From positions 1 through 45,121 of the forward strand of contig JASGMM010000008.1 of the NCBI GenBank assembly GCA_030156435.1: 45,121 nucleotides of DNA, written 5' to 3'. The position numbers and the translations under genes are program-made. Every line of letters begins with the position of its first letter. Position 1 is the stretch's first letter. Under the pieces are notes generated by a model. The model was not told the origin of the DNA, made no database searches, and saw nothing but the letters and a program-made list of their open reading frames with translations. The DNA comes from Clostridiales bacterium (GTDB lineage: Bacteria; Bacillota; Clostridia; Mahellales; Mahellaceae). Of this stretch, positions 186-35,299 are shown one piece after another.

Positions 186-623
186 ATGATGTATAAAGAT
201 ATTTGGAATGGTACACAAGATATCATAGGGAACAGCAAAACAAAGAAATTTACAGTAGATGGTTACTTTCAGTATAATAATATAACATTTTATATACCAG
301 CATTGTATAAATTTGAAAACCATATAATACTTGAGCTTTTTTCTAAAAACAATCATGAAAACATTTGGATACTGGTAATTAAGGAAATGCATGTTAATGG
401 ACAAGTTATATTACAGCCGCATAGTGCTGTATCTTATTTCAATACGCCTGCTAGAAAGTGGAGAACAGAAATAATAGCACATTCCACTAAATTTGGTTTC
501 ACGGAATCTGATTCTTTCTTTTTACAACGCACATTGTTTGATACAAAAATGAATTTTGAGAATGTATCCTCCTTAGATTTTATTATTGGCGAAACTTTGA
601 TTACTAACGTTTCTAAAGCATAA
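186..623 (+). CDS. Hypothetical protein, AT-rich orphan
   Basis: A 145-residue protein that I do not recognise. It starts at an ATG (ATGATG doublet) about 7 bases after AAAGAGG, a reasonable ribosome binding site. It has no signal peptide or membrane segment and is rich in Asn, Phe and Ile, with many aromatic residues in the first half, suggesting a small beta-rich cytosolic fold. Base composition is clearly more AT-rich than the housekeeping genes further right. It sits between a dispersed repeat and a transposon-like gene set, so recent acquisition is plausible. No function can be assigned. From the stop to about 730 no good gene is seen. Confidence 0.55.
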   Translation: MMYKDIWNGTQDIIGNSKTKKFTVDGYFQYNNITFYIPALYKFENHIILELFSKNNHENIWILVIKEMHVNGQVILQPHSAVSYFNTPARKWRTEIIAHSTKFGFTESDSFFLQRTLFDTKMNFENVSSLDFIIGETLITNVSKA

Positions 624-768
624 TGTATTATATAATTTAAAGCACTACATAAGGATTTTTTCATACTAATCCCCCTGACGCCACATCTGAATATTTCATC
701 ATTTCCGTACTGGCGGTTCACAGTAATGATACTGCCCGTTTGAAGAAATATATAATCCCTTTGAGGAT

Positions 769-1044
769 TTGAATATAGAGCAGGCAAAACAGCCTTTTGC
801 ATTGAAACGTTGCCCTTTCAGCCTCGATACACTCGAGCAGCTTTACACAGAGAATGTGCCTAAAGGAGCCGATGCGTTGGACAATATAGGGGATCCGCAT
901 AATATACTCGACTCGTCAGACAGGCTGATGGGTTGGATCACTCGCTTGGCAAAACGGACAGAGGATGCAGGCCTTTTGGAGAGCCTGTCGTCCTCCTATC
1001 TTAGGATAACGCAGGTTTTGCCCAGCATTAACAAATCCCTATGA
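769..1044 (+). CDS. Unknown protein in transposition-type ATPase operon (ORF1)
   Basis: A 91-codon frame from a TTG. The frame is open back to about 730, so the true start is uncertain or the 5' end has been lost; GAGGA sits only one base before the TTG, too close to serve it. The protein has no family I recognise: it is hydrophilic, mostly helical and ends in a Leu/Ser-rich segment. Its TGA stop overlaps the ATG of the next frame as ATGA, a classical coupling arrangement that supports both frames being real. Context (AAA+ ATPase and RHH protein downstream) suggests a transposon or integrated-element accessory protein. It could be the remnant of a larger gene whose 5' part is missing. Confidence 0.45.
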   Translation: MNIEQAKQPFALKRCPFSLDTLEQLYTENVPKGADALDNIGDPHNILDSSDRLMGWITRLAKRTEDAGLLESLSSSYLRITQVLPSINKSL

Positions 1045-1280
1045 CGCTGGATATGTTCATGGATACCATAGGGCGTATATTGGGCATAAGCTGTTTTACA
1101 TATAGCGATAAAGAGAAGATATATGAGTTTTATGATACGTTCAAGAGGTTTGGTGTTGATCTGGTCGCGGATATATTGGAGAGGCTTAAAGGTCAATACG
1201 ATGATTTCGGCAAGAACATCATATTCTATCTGAACATGCTTAAAAGCGCCGTTGACGACGCTGAGCTGATAAGTAAGTAA
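1041..1280 (+). CDS. Unknown small protein in transposition-type ATPase operon (ORF2)
   Basis: A 79-residue frame starting at the ATG of an ATGA overlap with ORF1, so probably translated by coupling; there is no separate Shine-Dalgarno. Predicted almost wholly helical and acidic, with no membrane segment or cysteine pair. I recognise no domain. It is followed 23 bases later by the AAA+ ATPase gene in the same orientation, and the four frames at 769-2355 read as one operon. Its role is inferred only from position: an accessory factor of a mobile element. Confidence 0.45.
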   Translation: MTLDMFMDTIGRILGISCFTYSDKEKIYEFYDTFKRFGVDLVADILERLKGQYDDFGKNIIFYLNMLKSAVDDAELISK

Positions 1281-1303
1281 AAGGAAAGGTAGGTAATATA
1301 ATT

Positions 1304-2086
1304 ATGCTAAATAAATTCTTCGGATTAAGCGGACTGCCGTTTGGTTCAAACATACGTTCGTATTTTGAAACAGATGGCTTTATGGCAAACAAGGCATCGC
1401 TTGAAACGCTGTTGTTTGGGCCACAGATAGCACTTGTATCGGGGCAGGTAGGCAGCGGCAAGTCGTCGCTGGTAAAGGCCTTTGTAAACGGCCTGGACCC
1501 TGCTGATTATCGCGTGGTATATACGTCGTCCAGCAACCCTGCCACCAGGGCTTTGTACAGGAGTATAGCCGAGGCTTTCGGTATCAAGGCTCAGTGGTAT
1601 GGAGGTGATGTGAAGCTGCAATTGTTAGGGCATTTCGACGAGCTCATATCCCAAGGTAGATACCCTATCGTCATACTGGATGAGTGTCACACCTATTCTC
1701 TGGCTATATTAGATGAGCTTAAGACCTTCTTCGACAGCAAGAATAATTTCTCCATGATATTGATAGGCCAACCGTCTATACATAAGAACCTTGATAGTTC
1801 ATATGCTCTGCCGCTTAAGCAACGTATATCCGTATTCATAGAGACAGGCGGTCTGAGTTTAGAAGAAACCAAGGGGTATGTAGAGCATCATGTAGCTTCG
1901 ACCGGTGGTAAACAGCCTATATTCGACGATAAATGCTATCCTGTATTGTATCAGCTAACCGGCGGTATACCGCGTATGATAAACCAGGTATGCTATCAGG
2001 TCATGGTACGAGCATACGGCGCCAAGAGCAACATTATAACCGATAATATGATAACATCAGCTTTTGAATCATTGAGATATCATTAA
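1304..2086 (+). CDS. AAA+ ATPase, ExeA/TniB/TnsC-like transposition type
   Basis: A 260-residue ATPase of the AAA_22 / ExeA-like class. Walker A is GQVGSGKSS at about residues 47-55. Walker B is IVILDECH at about 121-128, followed by a sensor-1-type region ending in GQP near 155. The C-terminal part has the LTGGIPRMIN motif of the ExeA/TniB lid domain. The protein starts LNKFFGLSGLPF, typical of ATPases that accompany DDE transposases, where they select the target or activate the transposase. RBS is AAAGGTAGGT before the ATG. No transposase is found in the window, so the element looks incomplete. ExeA-type secretion ATPases are larger and have a peptidoglycan-binding part, which is absent here. 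Confidence 0.75.
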   Translation: MLNKFFGLSGLPFGSNIRSYFETDGFMANKASLETLLFGPQIALVSGQVGSGKSSLVKAFVNGLDPADYRVVYTSSSNPATRALYRSIAEAFGIKAQWYGGDVKLQLLGHFDELISQGRYPIVILDECHTYSLAILDELKTFFDSKNNFSMILIGQPSIHKNLDSSYALPLKQRISVFIETGGLSLEETKGYVEHHVASTGGKQPIFDDKCYPVLYQLTGGIPRMINQVCYQVMVRAYGAKSNIITDNMITSAFESLRYH

Positions 2087-2100
2087 GGGGACTGATATGT

Positions 2101-2355
2101 ATGAACAAGCGCAATCAGCTGAATATACGGGTCAGCGATGAGTTTATGGAAGAGATAGAAAGGTTTTGCGCTGATAAGAGCATAAGCAAGAGCGAATTTA
2201 TGCGACGGTGTGTGGAAGAAGGCATACGTCATGAAGGATATAATCAGATAAATGTCGATATGCTGGAGTTTATGAGGGATAAGGACAGTATATATATGCT
2301 GACCAAGAGGATGGATAAGTTCAGACGGCGGGTTATGTATATACATGTATATTAA
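2101..2355 (+). CDS. Ribbon-helix-helix DNA-binding protein
   Basis: An 84-residue protein with a ribbon-helix-helix (Arc/CopG/MetJ type) N-terminus. The strand QLNIRVSDE (about 5-13) is followed by a helix, the turn DKSISKSEFMRR and a second helix, the usual RHH spacing for a dimer that binds DNA through the beta ribbon. The C-terminal half is charged and ends in a basic segment. It starts 14 bases after the ATPase stop and is followed by a terminator, so it is the last gene of the set. Likely role is repression of the operon or a DNA-binding part of the element; antitoxin is an alternative, but there is no adjacent toxin. Confidence 0.7.
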   Translation: MNKRNQLNIRVSDEFMEEIERFCADKSISKSEFMRRCVEEGIRHEGYNQINVDMLEFMRDKDSIYMLTKRMDKFRRRVMYIHVY

Positions 2356-2365
2356 TTCTTTAGCC

Positions 2366-2390
2366 AGGCATCGGAAACGGTGCCTTTTTA
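2366..2390 (+). terminator. Rho-independent terminator with GAAA tetraloop
   Basis: AGGCATCG, loop GAAA, CGGTGCCT (one T-G wobble), then a T tract. It lies 10 bases after the RHH gene stop and closes the 769-2355 gene set. The group II intron fragment begins just beyond it. Confidence 0.85.
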
Positions 2391-2399
2391 TTATGATTT

Positions 2400-2812
2400 T
2401 GCTGCCAAGCTCAATGGCCGATATACTGTCAAATCGCGTGGCTTACAACAGCTTGGCTCCGTTTACAAAACGCTTACCTCTCATACTCTTTCGAGAACCT
2501 CCGAGATCTCCCGGGTACATTAAATATACCTCGTAAGCTCGCCACGCTCTTGGGCCCCGGTCGAACCTCCGCATCCTTGCCGTTTCGTTTGCGGATTGCT
2601 GCCTGCTGCCTAGGAGACAGCATCGGCTTCGACACAATTTTCTAACGGGGCTGTATCGCTTCACGCTTTCGCATTGCGGCTCGCTTGCTCCCATGCCTAC
2701 GCTTAAACCTAGCCTCGCGGCTTCGGCTCCAAGGCTTGGTACCGGCTGTTGGCCAGACTTTGCCGGGCTCGGTGTTTCGCCGGGCTATATACCTAGCGCC
2801 GAACCGGCGCAC
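2400..2812 (-). mobile_element. Group II intron 5' fragment (domain I), truncated
   Basis: Read on the minus strand from 2812, the block opens with GTGCG, the canonical group II intron 5' end, followed at once by a GCGCCGGTTCGGCGC hairpin. It is G+C-rich and highly structured, with phrases typical of bacterial intron domain I such as CCCGGGAGATCT and AGAGTATGAGAGG. A GCCAAGCT/AGCTTGGC pair closes a stem near 2405-2460. No reverse-transcriptase ORF and no domain V hairpin follow, because the intron meets the terminator and RHH gene at about 2400. So only about 400 bases of the 5' RNA part remain. An 83-codon minus frame inside it (2443-2694) is very probably not coding. Class cannot be set from this fragment. 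Confidence 0.65.
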
Positions 2813-2944
2813 ACCCCAATAAATAAAAGTAATAGTAATAATCCAATTTAATTATTGGGCGATTTTGAAAAAGTCAAGATAGAAAGCTGACGTAAATAGG
2901 GGATGATAGATAAAAATACGAAGAAAATTTTTAATCAAGTTTAA

Positions 2945-3178
2945 ATGATGAAGGACAAGGAGCAGCTGCAGGTAATAATTAACTGGAAGCAAAAGTGGAT
3001 ATATATGGAGAATGTTGGAGGTGAGACGATAGACAGTCAAGCCTTTAACATAGATTTCAAGGGCTTTTGGAGTTTCCGAAAGTACTCTTACACCTTTATG
3101 GAGGTTTATATAAAATTTGGGATCGTCTCTCATGCTCCTAAGGATTTGCATAAAATAATCAAAGAAATTACCAAATAG
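2945..3178 (+). CDS. Hypothetical protein
   Basis: A 77-residue frame from an ATG doublet with no clear Shine-Dalgarno (the upstream is AT-rich). Composition is aromatic and basic (many Trp, Tyr, Lys), with no signal peptide or membrane helix. I recognise no family. It could be the tail of a longer gene lost at the intron/repeat junction, or a small orphan. An overlapping minus-strand frame (2852-3187) has less natural composition and is probably its shadow. Confidence 0.35.
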   Translation: MMKDKEQLQVIINWKQKWIYMENVGGETIDSQAFNIDFKGFWSFRKYSYTFMEVYIKFGIVSHAPKDLHKIIKEITK

Positions 3179-3327
3179 GGTTTCCATACAACGTTTTTTT
3201 TACATAGCTGAAAAGTCTTGAGATCCGCTAGAAATAGCGGATCCAATACATCATATTTTCTTACAACTGTCGAAGATGGGAATATATCACTTATTTTGTT
3301 TTTTGCAATAGGCTTTTTGCCGGCAAC

Positions 3328-3366
3328 AAAAAAGCAGCACAGTTATATAACGAGCTGTGCTGCTTT
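3328..3366 (-). terminator. Strong terminator, 12-bp perfect stem
   Basis: AAAGCAGCACAG (3331-3342) pairs perfectly with CTGTGCTGCTTT (3355-3366). On the minus strand the stem is followed by six T (A run at 3328-3333), so it terminates minus transcription coming from 3561-3770 or the region just upstream. It may also act weakly on the plus strand. Nearby, GATCCGCT/AGCGGATC (3222-3243) forms a second hairpin of unknown role. Confidence 0.8.
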
Positions 3367-3370
3367 AAAG

Positions 3371-3560
3371 CTAAGAAATATGAACTCTTTTGTGCTCAAT
3401 CTTCTTCTTCGTCTCTTCGCTGTCCTCACGAAAATATTTTATCAGCTGCGAGTGAGACATATATAAACATCGTCCCTTCATTAAATGTGCTCTTCACAAT
3501 TACCCGCTTACCGTTATACTTATACTCGTACGGTCTTATCTTCCATCGGTAATATTTTTT
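3371..3560 (-). pseudogene. Remnant coding sequence after an in-frame TAG
   Basis: On the minus strand the frame of the small membrane protein stops at TAG (3563-3561), but the same frame stays open for 44 further codons to a TGA at 3428-3426. That stretch reads like protein (KIRPYEYKYNGKRVIVKSTF). An overlapping second frame, ATG at 3460 to TAG at 3373-3371, encodes 29 charged residues (MSHSQLIKYFREDSEETKKK). The two overlap by 35 bases and together look like one frameshifted reading frame, followed directly by the strong terminator. No family is recognised. These may be two tiny genes, or the decayed end of a longer one. Confidence 0.3.
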
Positions 3561-3793: not shown

Positions 3794-6472
3794 TTACAGT
3801 AGTTCACCATATCTTCTTCTATACATCGTCTTCATAAATGTTGCCAGCAACATATAACATAGGATCATAGCCAGCAACCATGAGAAATAGATAGCAGGCA
3901 TTGCCGCCATTCCCAGAACCCTTCCAAACGGCGTGTAAGGCGTGACGGTACCGACAGCAATGACCGCAGAGGTGGATAATAATACTGGTATCGATGCGCG
4001 GCTCTGAATAAACGGGATTCTTGGCGTACGAATCATATGGATGACGAGCGTCTGTGACCATAAACTCTCTACAAACCAGCCGCTGTTAAATAAGCTTATA
4101 AACGATGCGCTATTTATTCCTTTTGAACCGTAAGCACCGCCTGTGATAACAGGACAAATAACAAAAAACATGATGATATAGGTAGTAATATCAAACACCG
4201 AACTCGTGGGCCCAAGCCATATCATGAAACTTCCTATAGAGGAAGCATCCCATTTGCGCGGTATCTTAAGATAATCCTCATCCATGTTATCCCACGGAAT
4301 AGCGATGCAGGAGATGTCGTAAATCAAATTAAGAAAAAGGATCTGAATCGGCTGCATCGGCAGAAATGGGAGAAAGGCACTTGCAGTCACTACTGAAAAC
4401 ATATTGCCAAAATTGGAGCTCGTGGTCATCTTGATATACTTTATGATATTACCAAAGGTACGACGTCCTTCTATAACGCCTTGCTCGAGCACCGTTAGGT
4501 CTTTCTCAAGCAAAATTATATCGGCAGAATCCTTGGCGACATCTACCGCCGTATCGACTGATATGGCGACATCAGCTTCATGCATAGCAGCCGCATCATT
4601 TATGCCATCTCCCATGAATCCCACAATATGGCCGTTGCTGCGCAGGGTTCTGACAATCCTAGCTTTTTGCTGCGGAGTGAGCTTGGCGAAAAGATTCGTT
4701 TTTTCTACAACCACAGCAAGCTTTTCGTCATTCATCTCTTCAATTTCAGAGCCTAGCAACATGTTATCGACTTTAAGCCCCACTTGCCTGCATATACATT
4801 TTGCCACTGCATCGCTATCTCCTGTCAGTACCTTTACGGCTACGCCATAGTCATTTAGGGCCATGATAGCTGCTGCTGCGGTATCTTTCGGAGGATCAAG
4901 GAAAGCTAGGTAACCTATAAGCACCATATCGGATTCATCTTTTACAGAAAAGACACCTTCTACAGGCGGATTATTTTTCTGCGCGACGGCTAAAACTCGC
5001 ATCCCTTGGTTACTGAGCTCAGCTACGGTACTGATGATCTCCTTGCGTATGTCATCGCTCAATTCAACGACTGTACCATTGTATTCGGTATAGGTACAAA
5101 TCGAGAGCATCTCTTCCACTGCACCTTTTGTGATAAGCTGGGTTTTGCCATCCTGATCGCGTATGACAACGCTCATCCTTCGTCTGTTAAAATCAAATGG
5201 GATTTCATCTACCTTGGTATACTTTTCCCGCAGAGAACGATAGGGCTCGGTTTTCGCATGATTGATTATAGCGACGTCCATGAGATTTTTAAGCCCCGTC
5301 TGATAATAGCTATTCAAAAATGCATGACGCAGTATTCTCTCATCCTCATTGCCATGTATATCAAGGTAGCGTTCCAAGACGATGTGATCTTGTGTAATCG
5401 TGCCAGTCTTGTCAGTACATAGGACATCCATGGCACCGAAATTCTGTATGGAGTTCAGATGTTTGACGATGGTTTTTTTATTTGCCATCGCGACTGCACC
5501 TTTTGCAAGATTTGTAGTGACGATCATGGGTAACATCTCAGGCGTAAGGCCGACTGCGACAGATAAAGCAAACAAAAACGCCTGAAACCAATCACCCTTG
5601 GTAAAACCGTTTATAAAAAATACAACGGGCACCATGCACATCATAAAGCGAATCAGAACCCAACTTACCGAATTAATGCCCTTTTCAAAACTCGTTGTAA
5701 CCTGGTTATCTGAAATAGCCTTGGCCATTGAACCGAAGCAGGTAAAATCACCCGTTGCCAAAACAATGCAAACGGCAGAACCGCTGACGACGTTGCTACC
5801 CATAAAGGCGAGATTTGGCAGATCCAGTGGATTTTTGGTTTCTTGAGCGATGGCATAGCTAAATTTTTCAACCGGCTCGCTTTCACCGGTCAAAGACGAT
5901 TGACTGACAAACAGGTCCTTACAGGAAATAATGCGTACATCTGCCGGGACCATATCGCCTGCCGTCAAAAAGATAATATCGCCGGGTACTATATCCGCGC
6001 TGGGCACTTCTTTTCTACCTTCCTCGCCGCGGGTTACAGTAACGGTTGTGGTAACCATTGTTTTAAGCTTCTCAGCTGAATTATTGGAACGGGTCTCCTG
6101 AATGAAGCGAAGCAGGGCGCTGATTATCACCATTGTACAGATTATAATTACAGTTGATGGATCCTTTTCGCCCGGAGCAACTATTACAACATCCGTGAAA
6201 AACGAGATAGCGGTAAGAACAAAAAGCACGACGGTGAATGGGTTTATGAAGGCGTCTATAAGCCTCTTATAAACCGACTCCGGCTTCTCACGGGAAATTT
6301 CATTCTTCCCATATTTATCTCTGAGCTCAGCGGCAGTTTCTTCGTTATATCCGTTGAGCGTGGTATTGTACTCTTTCAGCAGTTCATCTGTTTCCATCCT
6401 GCTTGCACGGATCAGTTTTTCTGCCACCGGCGATACAGCGCTGGAAACAGTTTGAATAATTTTCCTTTTCAT
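3794..6472 (-). CDS. mgtA: Magnesium-translocating P-type ATPase MgtA
   Basis: An 892-residue P3-type ATPase that imports Mg2+ across the cytoplasmic membrane at the expense of ATP. TGES actuator motif is at 195-198, PEMLP in M4 at 311-315, and the phosphorylated Asp is D354 in CTDKTGT. The hinge motif is GDGIND. MgtA-specific stretches are [19 protein letters not shown] and the M5-M6 phrase [14 protein letters not shown]. Length and order match full-length MgtA. The start chosen is the ATG with GGAGG 8 bases upstream; an in-frame TTG five codons earlier lies inside that RBS. An M-box riboswitch with a terminator precedes the gene, so expression should rise when cellular Mg2+ falls. Confidence 0.95.
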
Positions 6473-6574
6473 AGTCTTAACCTCCAATTTTTAGTTTTTT
6501 TATACTGCATACAATTACTGCTGTTCAGTAAGGAAGCAAAGACATGAAACACATGACATAAGCGCTTATTGATA

Positions 6575-6803: not shown

Positions 6804-6978
6804 CATGAATAACATACCTTTAAGGTATACTTGCGTTCAAGCTTTGGCTTCATAGGGCAATGGACTTGCATTAGGCCATGCCTTGGTTTCGACATGGTCT
6901 GTTTAACCTTCTCATAGTGTCTCCACTATTTCGCGGCAGCAACCCGTATCCCTACGGTAACCTCACCTACCGTCATTA
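6804..6978 (-). promoter_or_regulatory. M-box (ykoK leader) magnesium riboswitch
   Basis: Minus-strand reading shows the M-box signature: GGTAGGTGAGG, then ACCGTAGGGATACGGGTTGCTGCC as the conserved internal-loop region, GTGGAGACACT and a long CCATG/CATGG arm. It then has TGCAAGTCC...TTGCCCTATG and GCCAAAGCTTGAACG, which match the order of conserved blocks in the Bacillus subtilis mgtE M-box. A P1 stem can form between TGAATAA at the 5' end (6972-6978) and TTATTCA at 6806-6812. The 5' end overlaps the stop codon of the upstream ATPase gene. It controls mgtA by Mg2+-dependent attenuation. No tool was run; a covariance search would settle the boundaries. Confidence 0.88.
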
Positions 6979-9504
6979 TTCAACAGATTTTAATACTCTT
7001 ATCCTTTTGCTTCTGGCGTATTTCTTAACAATTTCCCACCACATTGTCGATACCGCAGCTATAGCGATTGCCCCAACCAAATATGGCAAAGGCAATGGAT
7101 TCGTGCTTACGATATTATTTAAAGTGGGTATATAGAGGATTGCCAAAAGGCCCAAAACAATCCCCGCATTGATATAACCGATGACTTTATCTCTCAACTT
7201 AAACATATCTTTAAATATGCTGTCTATGTTGGACCTATTAACGTATACCAGCAATAAATTCGCAAATATGAGTATCGTTAATGAGAAGCTTCTGGCCATA
7301 TTCTGCGTAATGCCACTTCGCATCATATACATATACGGAATGAACAATGCGGCAAAAATGGTTGTACCTTGCAATAAAGCTTTTGTTAGCCACTTTGTCG
7401 TGATCAACGGTTCGGATTTTGGCCTAGGCTTTCTGTTCATTATGTCAGGTTCCTCCGGCTGGCGCTCGAATACTATAGAGCACGTAGGGTCTATAATCAG
7501 CTCCAATAATACCACATGTGTAGGAAGCAAAAGCAGCGGTAAGTGCAATAGCGGCGTCAGCACAGCGGTTAAGGCTATGGGTATATGAACGCACAATATA
7601 TACTCGAAAGCCTTCTTGATATTATCGTATATCCTGCGGCCATTCCTTATAGAATCCACGATTGTCGTAAAATTATCATCCAGCAAAATCATATCGGCGG
7701 CTTCTTTTGCAACGCCTGTGCCGCGTTTACCCATAGCAATGCCTATATCGGCATACTTTAACGCCGGCGCGTCGTTGACGCCGTCTCCCGTCATCGCTAC
7801 CACTTCACCGATATCCTTGAAAGCCTTTACTATGCGCATTTTATGCCTTGGTATTACGCGGGCAAAGATATTCGTATTTACTATCCTGTTTTTTAATTCT
7901 TCATCGGTCATTTCTTCCAATTCTTGCCCCGTAATTACATTTTCATAATTTTGTATGCCGATTTCTTTAGCTATGGATTGAGCGGTAATACCATTATCAC
8001 CTGTAATCATTATAACCCTTATCCCCGCCTTGTTGCAAACATCTATGGCATCCGGCACAACCTCTCGCGGCGGATCGGCCAAACCTATCAATCCCAAGAG
8101 CCTCATCTGATTTTCATCAAGGCCTTTGGGGATATCATTCATATCGTCGTTTATTGCCACGGCTATAACCCTGTAACCTTTTGAAGCCATTTCGATTTGG
8201 CGGTTTTCTACGGTTTTCATGTCTTCATCATTTAAATGGCATAACGGTATTATTGATTCGGGTGAACCTTTCGCGGCGAGTGTAGGCTTACCATCCAATT
8301 CCCATACATGCCCCATCATTTTTGATTCGGAACTGAACGGATACTCGAAGATGAGTTTATGCGAAAATGCATCTTTTATATTCATACCGTTTTTTATTCC
8401 GCACTCTATGATGGCTTTTTCCATGGGGTCATAGGATTCCTCTTCGCAGGCTAAAACAGCCCATTCTATGACGCTTACGCCTTTCTCGTCAGTTTTATCA
8501 TAAAAATCATAAATATCCCTGACTTCCATCTGGTTTTTTGTAAGAGTACCGGTTTTGTCAACACACAAAACAGATATGGCGCCAAGGGTTTCTATAGCAG
8601 GTATTCTCCTTACCAAAGCATTTCGTTTAGCCAGCCGCCATGCGCCCATAGCAAGGAAAACAGTCAGAACCACTGGAAATTCCTCCGGTATCATGGCCAT
8701 CGTTACCGTAATAGCTGAGAGCAGCCCGTCTATGAAACTCTTTTGATGTACGAATGTAACGGCGAATACTAATATAAATAAGCCGATACTTACATAAAGG
8801 CTCGCTTTTATCAGTTGCTTCGTCTGCATTTCCAGCGGCGTGGATTGTTCAGGCGCGGCGTTTATGTCGGCACCTATTTTGCCATACTCCGTCTGTAAGC
8901 CTATAGCCGTGACCCGCACGATTGCTGAGCCGTTTATCACGGTTGTCCCGGCATAGCAATAATTTTTCTTCCAATATTCTTTTTCATCCGCAGCATCTGT
9001 TTCTGCATTCTTCCAGCTTATTTGGGATTCACCCGTTAGGGTGGATTCATCCATGCCAAGGTCATGCATTTCAATGATTTGGCCATCCGCGGACACAATG
9101 TCTCCTTCTTTGAGAAGCATTATGTCGCCGACAGTTAATTCATTGCTATCTATGGTTACTAGCTCGTTATTCCTAACGACGGTTATTTTGGGCGACGACA
9201 AATCCTTTAGGGCGTCTAAAGTCTTATCTGTCCGCCATTCTTGGAAAAAGCTTATGCCTGTCACCACCGCGACAAAAAACATCATTATAATACCGTCTCT
9301 GTATTCTCCCAGAAAGAAATAAATGAACGCCGTGCCAAAAAGCAGTGCCAGCATCGGCTCCTTAAATACGGATAAAATGCGTGAAAGCAATGTTTTCTTC
9401 TTTTTAGGTACCAACTCATTCTTCCCGTATTTTAACTGCAAATCCATAACTTCATCGTCAGTGAGTCCGGTGTAATCTCCTTCAAAACCGTTTATCTTTG
9501 CCAT
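6976..9504 (-). CDS. Cation-transporting P-type ATPase, PEEFP type
   Basis: An 842-residue P2-like ATPase. It has an N-terminal cation-ATPase domain (about 10-75), TGES at 157-160, PEEFP in M4 at 273-277, phosphorylated Asp D316 in CVDKTGT and hinge GDGVNDAPAL. M6 carries LELIIDPTCS. PEEFP in place of PEGLP, together with DPT in M6, separates it from classical SERCA-type pumps, so the ion cannot be named with confidence; Ca2+, Mn2+ or another divalent ion are candidates. GGAGG lies 7 bases before the ATG. It has its own TTGCAT-17-TATAAT promoter, flanked by two inverted-repeat operators, so it is likely repressor-controlled. The M-box of mgtA starts at its stop codon. Confidence 0.88.
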   Translation of the reverse strand: MAKINGFEGDYTGLTDDEVMDLQLKYGKNELVPKKKKTLLSRILSVFKEPMLALLFGTAFIYFFLGEYRDGIIMMFFVAVVTGISFFQEWRTDKTLDALKDLSSPKITVVRNNELVTIDSNELTVGDIMLLKEGDIVSADGQIIEMHDLGMDESTLTGESQISWKNAETDAADEKEYWKKNYCYAGTTVINGSAIVRVTAIGLQTEYGKIGADINAAPEQSTPLEMQTKQLIKASLYVSIGLFILVFAVTFVHQKSFIDGLLSAITVTMAMIPEEFPVVLTVFLAMGAWRLAKRNALVRRIPAIETLGAISVLCVDKTGTLTKNQMEVRDIYDFYDKTDEKGVSVIEWAVLACEEESYDPMEKAIIECGIKNGMNIKDAFSHKLIFEYPFSSESKMMGHVWELDGKPTLAAKGSPESIIPLCHLNDEDMKTVENRQIEMASKGYRVIAVAINDDMNDIPKGLDENQMRLLGLIGLADPPREVVPDAIDVCNKAGIRVIMITGDNGITAQSIAKEIGIQNYENVITGQELEEMTDEELKNRIVNTNIFARVIPRHKMRIVKAFKDIGEVVAMTGDGVNDAPALKYADIGIAMGKRGTGVAKEAADMILLDDNFTTIVDSIRNGRRIYDNIKKAFEYILCVHIPIALTAVLTPLLHLPLLLLPTHVVLLELIIDPTCSIVFERQPEEPDIMNRKPRPKSEPLITTKWLTKALLQGTTIFAALFIPYMYMMRSGITQNMARSFSLTILIFANLLLVYVNRSNIDSIFKDMFKLRDKVIGYINAGIVLGLLAILYIPTLNNIVSTNPLPLPYLVGAIAIAAVSTMWWEIVKKYARSKRIRVLKSVE

Positions 9505-34218: not shown

Positions 34219-34247
34219 AGTTTATACTATATCAATGCTGCCGTCAA
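34219..34247 (-). promoter_or_regulatory. Candidate V-ATPase operon promoter
   Basis: On the minus strand TTGACG (34247-34242) is followed after 17 bases by TAAACT, or after 15 by TATAAA. The position, about 50 bases before the ntpF start, is right; the -10 box is ambiguous. Confidence 0.4.
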
Positions 34248-34299
34248 CCCTCGGTATGCAAAACTGCAATTCATAATATAGGAAATTTGTGTCTATCCA

Positions 34300-34545
34300 G
34301 GTACCATTGCGCATAGGCGACGGTAACGATTAGCCTCAGGGCGATTTTGTGGAGGATATATGGTGAAACTTAGCGAAGTGTAGGATTAGAATTCCCCAGC
34401 GTAACTGAATTATCTAAACAATGTTAAAGACGATCCCGCTCTAAAATGACAAAGTAGCAAAAATTTATCGGCGCTTTGGAAATTCCCGAAACGAGCTCTA
34501 GTTTCACCGATATCCGAAACACATAAGCCGGAGGCTAATAAGTTA
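34300..34545 (+). ncRNA. Putative structured RNA, possibly HEARO/omega-RNA-like
   Basis: A gene-free block with nested complementary arms. Outer arms GGATATATGGTGAAACT (34354-34370) and AGTTTCACCGATATCC (34500-34515) pair over 16 bp with one bulge/mismatch. Inner arms AATTCC..AGCG (34390-34401) and CGCT..GGAAATT (34472-34484) pair inside them. AGGC-GACG-GTAA-CG-ATTA-GCCT (34314-34335) forms a GTAA-loop hairpin before, and ACTTAGCGAAGT a small stem inside. Nesting on this scale argues for an RNA rather than a protein site. The style resembles HEARO, the RNA partner of IsrB/IscB nucleases, but I rely on memory of its look and no such nuclease gene is in the window. A MITE is the alternative. 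Confidence 0.4.
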
Positions 34546-34573
34546 CCAAGCCACCTGAACAATCACGAAAGTT

Positions 34574-35299
34574 TTATGTTCTATTCTTCAACTTATTAAA
34601 AGCATCTTTGAGCAGTATATTCAATATAGGTATTTTATTAAAGCGTATGGCCAATACGATGGGTACTACAGTTATAATTACGTACAATAAAATCGATATG
34701 GCCACGCTGTCTACCGTTATATTCCGTGCCATACTGCCCATATATACGTAAGCTGCCGTTCCATGAATCATACTGAGCATTGTGGCTAATGCATAATCCT
34801 TGAACTTTATATTAGTTAATCCCGAACCATAACTAACAGCGTCCACGGGTAATATCGGCACCACCCTCAATAGGAAAACAGTGCTGAAAGCCTTCTCCTC
34901 CCTAACCTGCGCAAAAACATCGGCAGCCTTGCCTTTTAGAGCACGCTCTAGCAGTTTATTAATAAAACCGCTGCCGAAATATCTAGCCAGACCAAAGGCT
35001 ATAAACGTTCCCGTCACGATGCCTATATAGGTATATATAGTACCATATACAAAACCGAATATAAAGCCGCCCGCAAAAGAAAATAAGCCGGCCGACAAAA
35101 GCGATAACGGCCTTAGCGCACATAAAGCCATGAAAACCAACGGCCCCCACACGCCAAAGGTTTGCAGTGTGCCACCGAGTTTGTTTGGATCTATATATTG
35201 GCTTACATGATATTTGTTGGCTAAGTATACGCCCGACAAAATCAGCCCCACCAATATAATGATACCTATATTTTCTTTCTTTAGCAGTCTTTCCATCAT
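34574..35299 (-). CDS. TVP38/TMEM64 family membrane protein, copy 1
   Basis: A 241-residue polytopic protein of the SNARE-associated/DedA-like (VTT) family. It has five or six membrane helices; the signature region GFVYGTIYTYIGIVTGTFIAFGLARYFG is at about 80-107 and LLRVVPILPVDAVSYGSGL at about 140-160. The F/G-rich re-entrant loop is typical. Some relatives act as lipid scramblases or in polyprenyl-phosphate flipping; the role here is unknown. ATG doublet start with weak RBS 6 bases after the stop of its paralogue, so coupled translation is likely. A hydrophobic-basic tail follows. Confidence 0.88.
   Translation of the reverse strand: MMERLLKKENIGIIILVGLILSGVYLANKYHVSQYIDPNKLGGTLQTFGVWGPLVFMALCALRPLSLLSAGLFSFAGGFIFGFVYGTIYTYIGIVTGTFIAFGLARYFGSGFINKLLERALKGKAADVFAQVREEKAFSTVFLLRVVPILPVDAVSYGSGLTNIKFKDYALATMLSMIHGTAAYVYMGSMARNITVDSVAISILLYVIITVVPIVLAIRFNKIPILNILLKDAFNKLKNRT

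Follow-up and report, generated by a model that had tools for sequence, protein, structure and literature searches.

The stretch at positions 34289-34566 of the window (the whole 45,121-nucleotide stretch of DNA analysed here) is a 278-bp non-coding transposable element and one member of a dispersed family. With a probability of about 0.93, it is a MITE that has ends of the IS66-family type and was most likely once moved in trans by an IS66-family transposase. An earlier note on this DNA had described the interval 34300-34545 as a stand-alone nested structured RNA, had compared it to HEARO/omega-RNA, and had listed a MITE and a leader RNA as alternatives. The interval is indeed gene-free and structured, and the list of open reading frames contains none of at least 80 aa within 34289-34566; however, the outermost layers of the structure had been missed. 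The parts of the element and its surroundings are the following:

34289..34566, plus strand: whole MITE copy, 278 bp, delimited by the family alignment boundaries, the terminal inverted repeats and the ORF list
34289..34305, plus strand: left terminal inverted repeat, GTGTCTATCCAGGTACC (family consensus GTGACTRTTCAGGTACC)
34550..34566, minus strand: right terminal inverted repeat, minus-strand reading GTGATTGTTCAGGTGGC
34281..34288, no strand: left flank GGAAATTT, decayed 8-bp target-site duplication matching the right flank at 6/8 bases, recognised from intact 8-bp duplications at other copies
34567..34574, no strand: right flank GAAAGTTT, decayed 8-bp target-site duplication
34322..34337, plus strand: left subterminal inverted repeat GGTAACGATTAGCCTC, which resembles the terminal repeat
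34531..34547, minus strand: right subterminal inverted repeat, plus-strand letters GAGGCTAATAAGTTACC
34355..34374, plus strand: 5' arm of the core stem, GATATATGGTGAAACTTAGC (outer pairing of the earlier note)
34495..34514, plus strand: 3' arm of the core stem, GCTCTAGTTTCACCGATATC (outer pairing of the earlier note)
34390..34401, plus strand: 5' arm of the inner stem, AATTCCCCAGCG
34472..34484, plus strand: 3' arm of the inner stem, CGCTTTGGAAATT
34219..34247, minus strand: promoter-like site, TTGACG-17-TAAACT, between the element and the V-ATPase operon, in a region conserved in both congeners

The window copy is neighboured by V-ATPase subunit genes and a VTT-domain gene (34574-35299); it lies approximately 115 bp upstream of the first gene of the V-ATPase operon, and the final base of its right flank is part of the VTT-domain gene's stop codon. 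Its two terminal repeats agree with the consensus used at 15/17 and 14/17 positions. The left subterminal repeat forms a mini-palindromic end of 44-50 bp together with 34289-34305, and the right subterminal and terminal repeats form a second mini-palindromic end, which is found also on its own, at 44 bp. Elsewhere in the window, group II intron domains were matched at 2545-2777 on the minus strand (RF02005, 117.7 bits), with no obvious intron-encoded protein among the few adjacent ORFs tested, and an M-box magnesium riboswitch was located at 6821-6981 on the minus strand; the gene for a P-type cation ATPase (3794-6487, also on the minus strand) begins roughly 330 nt downstream of it.

The nested pairings described in the earlier note (34354-34370 with 34500-34515, and 34390-34401 with 34472-34484) exist where it had placed them. 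The RNA fold of 34300-34545 on the plus strand reached -78.9 kcal/mol, compared to -55.2 +/- 4.2 kcal/mol in dinucleotide shuffles (z = -5.7; 0/200 shuffles equally good). The reverse strand gave a z of -3.2 and single-stranded DNA a z of -3.6, and the overall shape on either strand is a single long imperfect hairpin; folding on both strands is expected of a palindromic DNA element. Two further pairing layers were found outside those already described, one formed by the subterminal repeats (34322-34337 with 34531-34547) and one by the terminal repeats (34289-34305 with 34550-34566), and these layers place the true limits at 34289-34566. What had looked like a nested "RNA" structure arises from the folding of three sets of inverted repeats in the element: terminal, subterminal and core.

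A BLAST search for other copies and their boundaries, one of the checks that the earlier note had proposed, returned 28 matches in the source genome (G000), and the family alignment again placed the boundaries of the window copy at 34289-34566. Four of the 28, the window itself included, are near full length at 87-100% identity. The first search of two other genomes of the same genus, very probably Mahella, yielded 13 matches in G001 and 17 in G002, and longer queries yielded 32-33 element matches in G002 and 7-10 in G001 (about 40 all told). The family was found in 0/57 more distant genomes of the class, and a scan of a contig collection with the conserved 3' core gave no match; close relatives may be absent from that collection. 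Aligned copies have both ends in common and differ in the middle, where some contain other modules, and shortened copies of approximately 190, 70, 49 or 44 bp are present. The subterminal repeat of the family, GAGGCTAATCAGTTACC, resembles the terminal repeat, so that the element has a small palindrome of about 44-50 bp at either end. In one orthologous pair (L010, L073), a 286-bp copy in the source genome corresponds to a 44-bp copy in G002, and the left end of the latter looks like a fusion of terminal and internal repeat; the pair fits deletion between direct repeats. The core hairpin is retained without the GTGACT ends in two divergent copies, L081 (G002, near 888 kb) and L086 (G001, contig 64); their outer sequence is in other letters (TCCGGAATAT and TTCGGAATAT), and they may represent a subfamily whose ends differ. 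The MITE copies L013, L015, L019, L020 and L021 contain a second palindromic module, GGCTTGACATATATGC...GCATATATGTTTAAGCC, which is inverted in L028 and has the look of a further small mobile element sitting within the MITE. The L013 locus and its counterpart L071 share 1301 bp, including one copy, at 99.4% identity between G000 and G002, compared to about 92-97% at other orthologous loci of these genomes, and this high identity reflects either recent exchange or strong conservation.

Family copies end in inverted repeats GTGACTRTTCAGGTACC and are bordered by 8-bp target duplications. The duplications are perfect at five independent sites, namely L012 (GCCTGTTT), L059 (AAAATAGG), L060/L084 (TGAATAAA, counted as a single orthologous site), L069 (CTCATTTT) and L073 (ATTGTAGT), and approximately eight further sites have duplications with one mismatch. 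The 187-bp insertion at L012 is missing from both G001 and G002. The empty site in G002 is uninterrupted sequence with a single GCCTGTTT, and exactly 8 bases there are common to the matches of the two flanks; in G001, with its trimmed alignments, the flank matches overlap by 6. The window's element is likewise absent from the orthologous site upstream of the V-ATPase genes in G001 and G002, and other sequence is present there. Each congener has another insert at this site (L097 in G002, L098 in G001). The G002 insert is a foldback unlike the window's element, and about 33 nt of flank is repeated at its borders, an unusually long stretch for a target duplication.

The 15-mer of the terminal inverted repeat was sought in 391 genomes of the class and was present in only six. 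Outside the genus, an inverted pair of the 15-mer was found in one genome only (G025), measuring 2,896 bp end to end. Single matches in G371, G082 and G104 lie inside ordinary coding genes and were taken as chance. The G025 element (contig 76; L122, 160-3055) has GTGACTGTTCAGGTACCCC at each end of its 2,896 bp and contains a DruA-family ORF (PF14236) and an IS66 transposase (PF03050, E 2e-24); no target duplication was found at this element. With the G025 transposase as the query for relatives, an element was found on contig 164 of G050 (L123, 821-3674) with ends GTGTCTATTCAGGTAG, a 7-bp duplication CTGGATG, an IS66 transposase with 55% identity to that of G025, and a second ORF that, by eye, we take to be DruA-like. 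An IS66-DruA element of G002 (L126, about 451-3480), whose DruA ORF is likewise our assignment by eye, is interrupted by stop codons, and its ends, GTTAYTATTCACAGCCC, are related to these but not the same. In each of L122, L123 and L126, one pair of terminal repeats encloses both a DruA-family gene and an IS66 transposase; DruA is better known from the Druantia phage-defence system. No IS66 transposase was found in the source genome, and a scan of the contig collection with the IS66 transposase returned only the same G025 record, a MAG named Clostridiales bacterium.

The family presents terminal inverted repeats, a target duplication, short non-coding sequence, and dispersed copies with empty sites, and its ends are shared with autonomous elements in other genera (G025 and G050); these data bear out the MITE that the earlier note had listed as an alternative. 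The same ends flank an IS66 transposase, and the target duplication of IS66 elements is 8 bp, as it is here. No copy in the genus was found to combine exactly these ends with an intact transposase, and for this reason we infer the IS66-type mover of the Mahella copies from elements elsewhere. The family was most likely once moved by an IS66-family transposase, and the simplest account would be a MITE family mobilised by a transposase of the IS66-DruA type, which in this genus has since disappeared or decayed. In this model, the element ends GTGACTRTTCAGGTACC would serve as recognition sites for an IS66-family transposase supplied in trans, which would have bound both ends and then moved the element, and joining to the new site would have generated the 8-bp target duplications. 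The window copy would have inserted between the VTT-domain gene and the V-type ATPase operon, beside the VTT stop codon, and would have decayed after insertion; the imperfect duplication of this copy (6/8) is evidence that counts against the model, as are the lack of an IS66 transposase in the source genome, the interrupted G002 element with its differing ends, the missing duplication at the G025 element and the two divergent copies without GTGACT ends.

The lack in the genus of a transposase with these exact ends would also be consistent with a MITE belonging to some other transposase family, but this is improbable, as two independent full elements with these ends encode an IS66 transposase and DruA, and the 8-bp duplications fit IS66. 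The likeness to a guide RNA that has lost its nuclease, whether HEARO/omega-RNA or another of the IS200/IS605 type, stems from the long nested pairing, and the source genome does contain a HEARO RNA, an IscB-like gene and one TnpB-type C-terminal domain. However, Rfam gave nothing at the element at the gathering threshold and zero matches on either strand up to E=10, so that the Infernal check proposed for HEARO came back empty, and sensitivity is not the problem because the HEARO model (RF02033) scores 164.5 bits on a true copy in the same genome. That copy (L119, contig 90, 1501-1706) lies beside an ORF at 62-1453 on the minus strand, a 463-aa HNH protein that we presume by eye to be IscB-like; a weaker HEARO match, of 43.4 bits, was found on contig 103 (L120). 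Moreover, IS200/IS605 elements are without terminal inverted repeats and 8-bp target duplications, whereas copies of this family end in both. The iscB/isrB/tnpB genes sought in the genome are represented by the IscB-like gene and the TnpB-type domain, but none is beside the element, where the V-ATPase and VTT-domain genes agree with the earlier observation that no nuclease lies near and no remnant of an adjacent IscB/IsrB nuclease was found. Altogether, a guide RNA is extremely improbable. A role as a structured or riboswitch-like leader RNA for the V-ATPase operon would account for the strong fold so close upstream of the operon's first gene; it is nevertheless very unlikely, given that other copies sit at unrelated sites, that the orthologous V-ATPase sites are without the element, and that the element is separated from the operon by the promoter-like site, which belongs to a stretch conserved in three species. 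Judged by its consensus and conservation, this site would probably leave the element outside the operon mRNA.

It is also conceivable, though doubtful, that the MITE hairpin is in addition selected as RNA, for example as an RNase III-cut stem in read-through transcripts or as a domesticated small RNA. In the ten long copies compared, the fold of the window copy keeps 90.5% of its pair cells, against 28-39% in slid controls, a comparison that favours the window fold because the structure was derived from the window copy. Two-sided changes were found in 12 pairs versus 6.3 in shuffles, and inner helices 4 to 9 are 96-100% paired even though two copies share only about 71% identity with the rest. 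However, just over half of the two-sided cells (11/20) trace to one lineage, that of two related copies at about 71% identity to the others; template-switching palindrome correction or transposition constraints could maintain the stem without any role for RNA; and other copies show free replacement or loss of the core modules. The stem is maintained beyond mere recent copying, and RNA selection and DNA-level causes alike fit the tests. A fuller version, also with a low probability, would be a composite MITE with active maintenance of its long stem, in which transcription, where it occurs, gives a processed structured RNA affecting neighbouring genes, and the mini-palindrome ends can persist alone.

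The identification of this stretch as a MITE replaces a false guide-RNA lead with a genus-specific MITE family, and it would link MITEs to the IS66 group bearing a DruA gene. It also illustrates that large palindromic MITEs can mimic structured non-coding RNAs in genome scans, and that copies, target duplications and empty sites tell the two apart. In the library searched, papers on Mahella MITEs and IS66 MITEs gave no description of the Mahella family, and none was found that names DruA together with IS66. Compared to HEARO/omega-RNA (RF02033) of IscB/IsrB, the element has a nested RNA-like fold of similar length, but it has no sequence or structure match to HEARO, and the ends and duplications differ. 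Correia/NEMIS, RUP and ERIC are bacterial MITEs or palindromic repeats that can be transcribed as hairpins, and the Mahella MITE is likewise small, non-coding, palindromic, multi-copy and, most likely, mobilised in trans; unlike them, it has a different end sequence and transposase family, is modular with nested mini-ends, and occurs here in only one genus. With the IS66-family insertion sequences (PF03050, DruA-bearing group) it shares the letters of the roughly 17-bp terminal inverted repeat and the 8-bp target duplications, whereas it is non-coding and 278 bp long compared to about 2.9 kb for the full elements, in which its subterminal and core sequences are not seen. The Mahella copies form a new genus-specific MITE family of a known kind, most likely the IS66 type.
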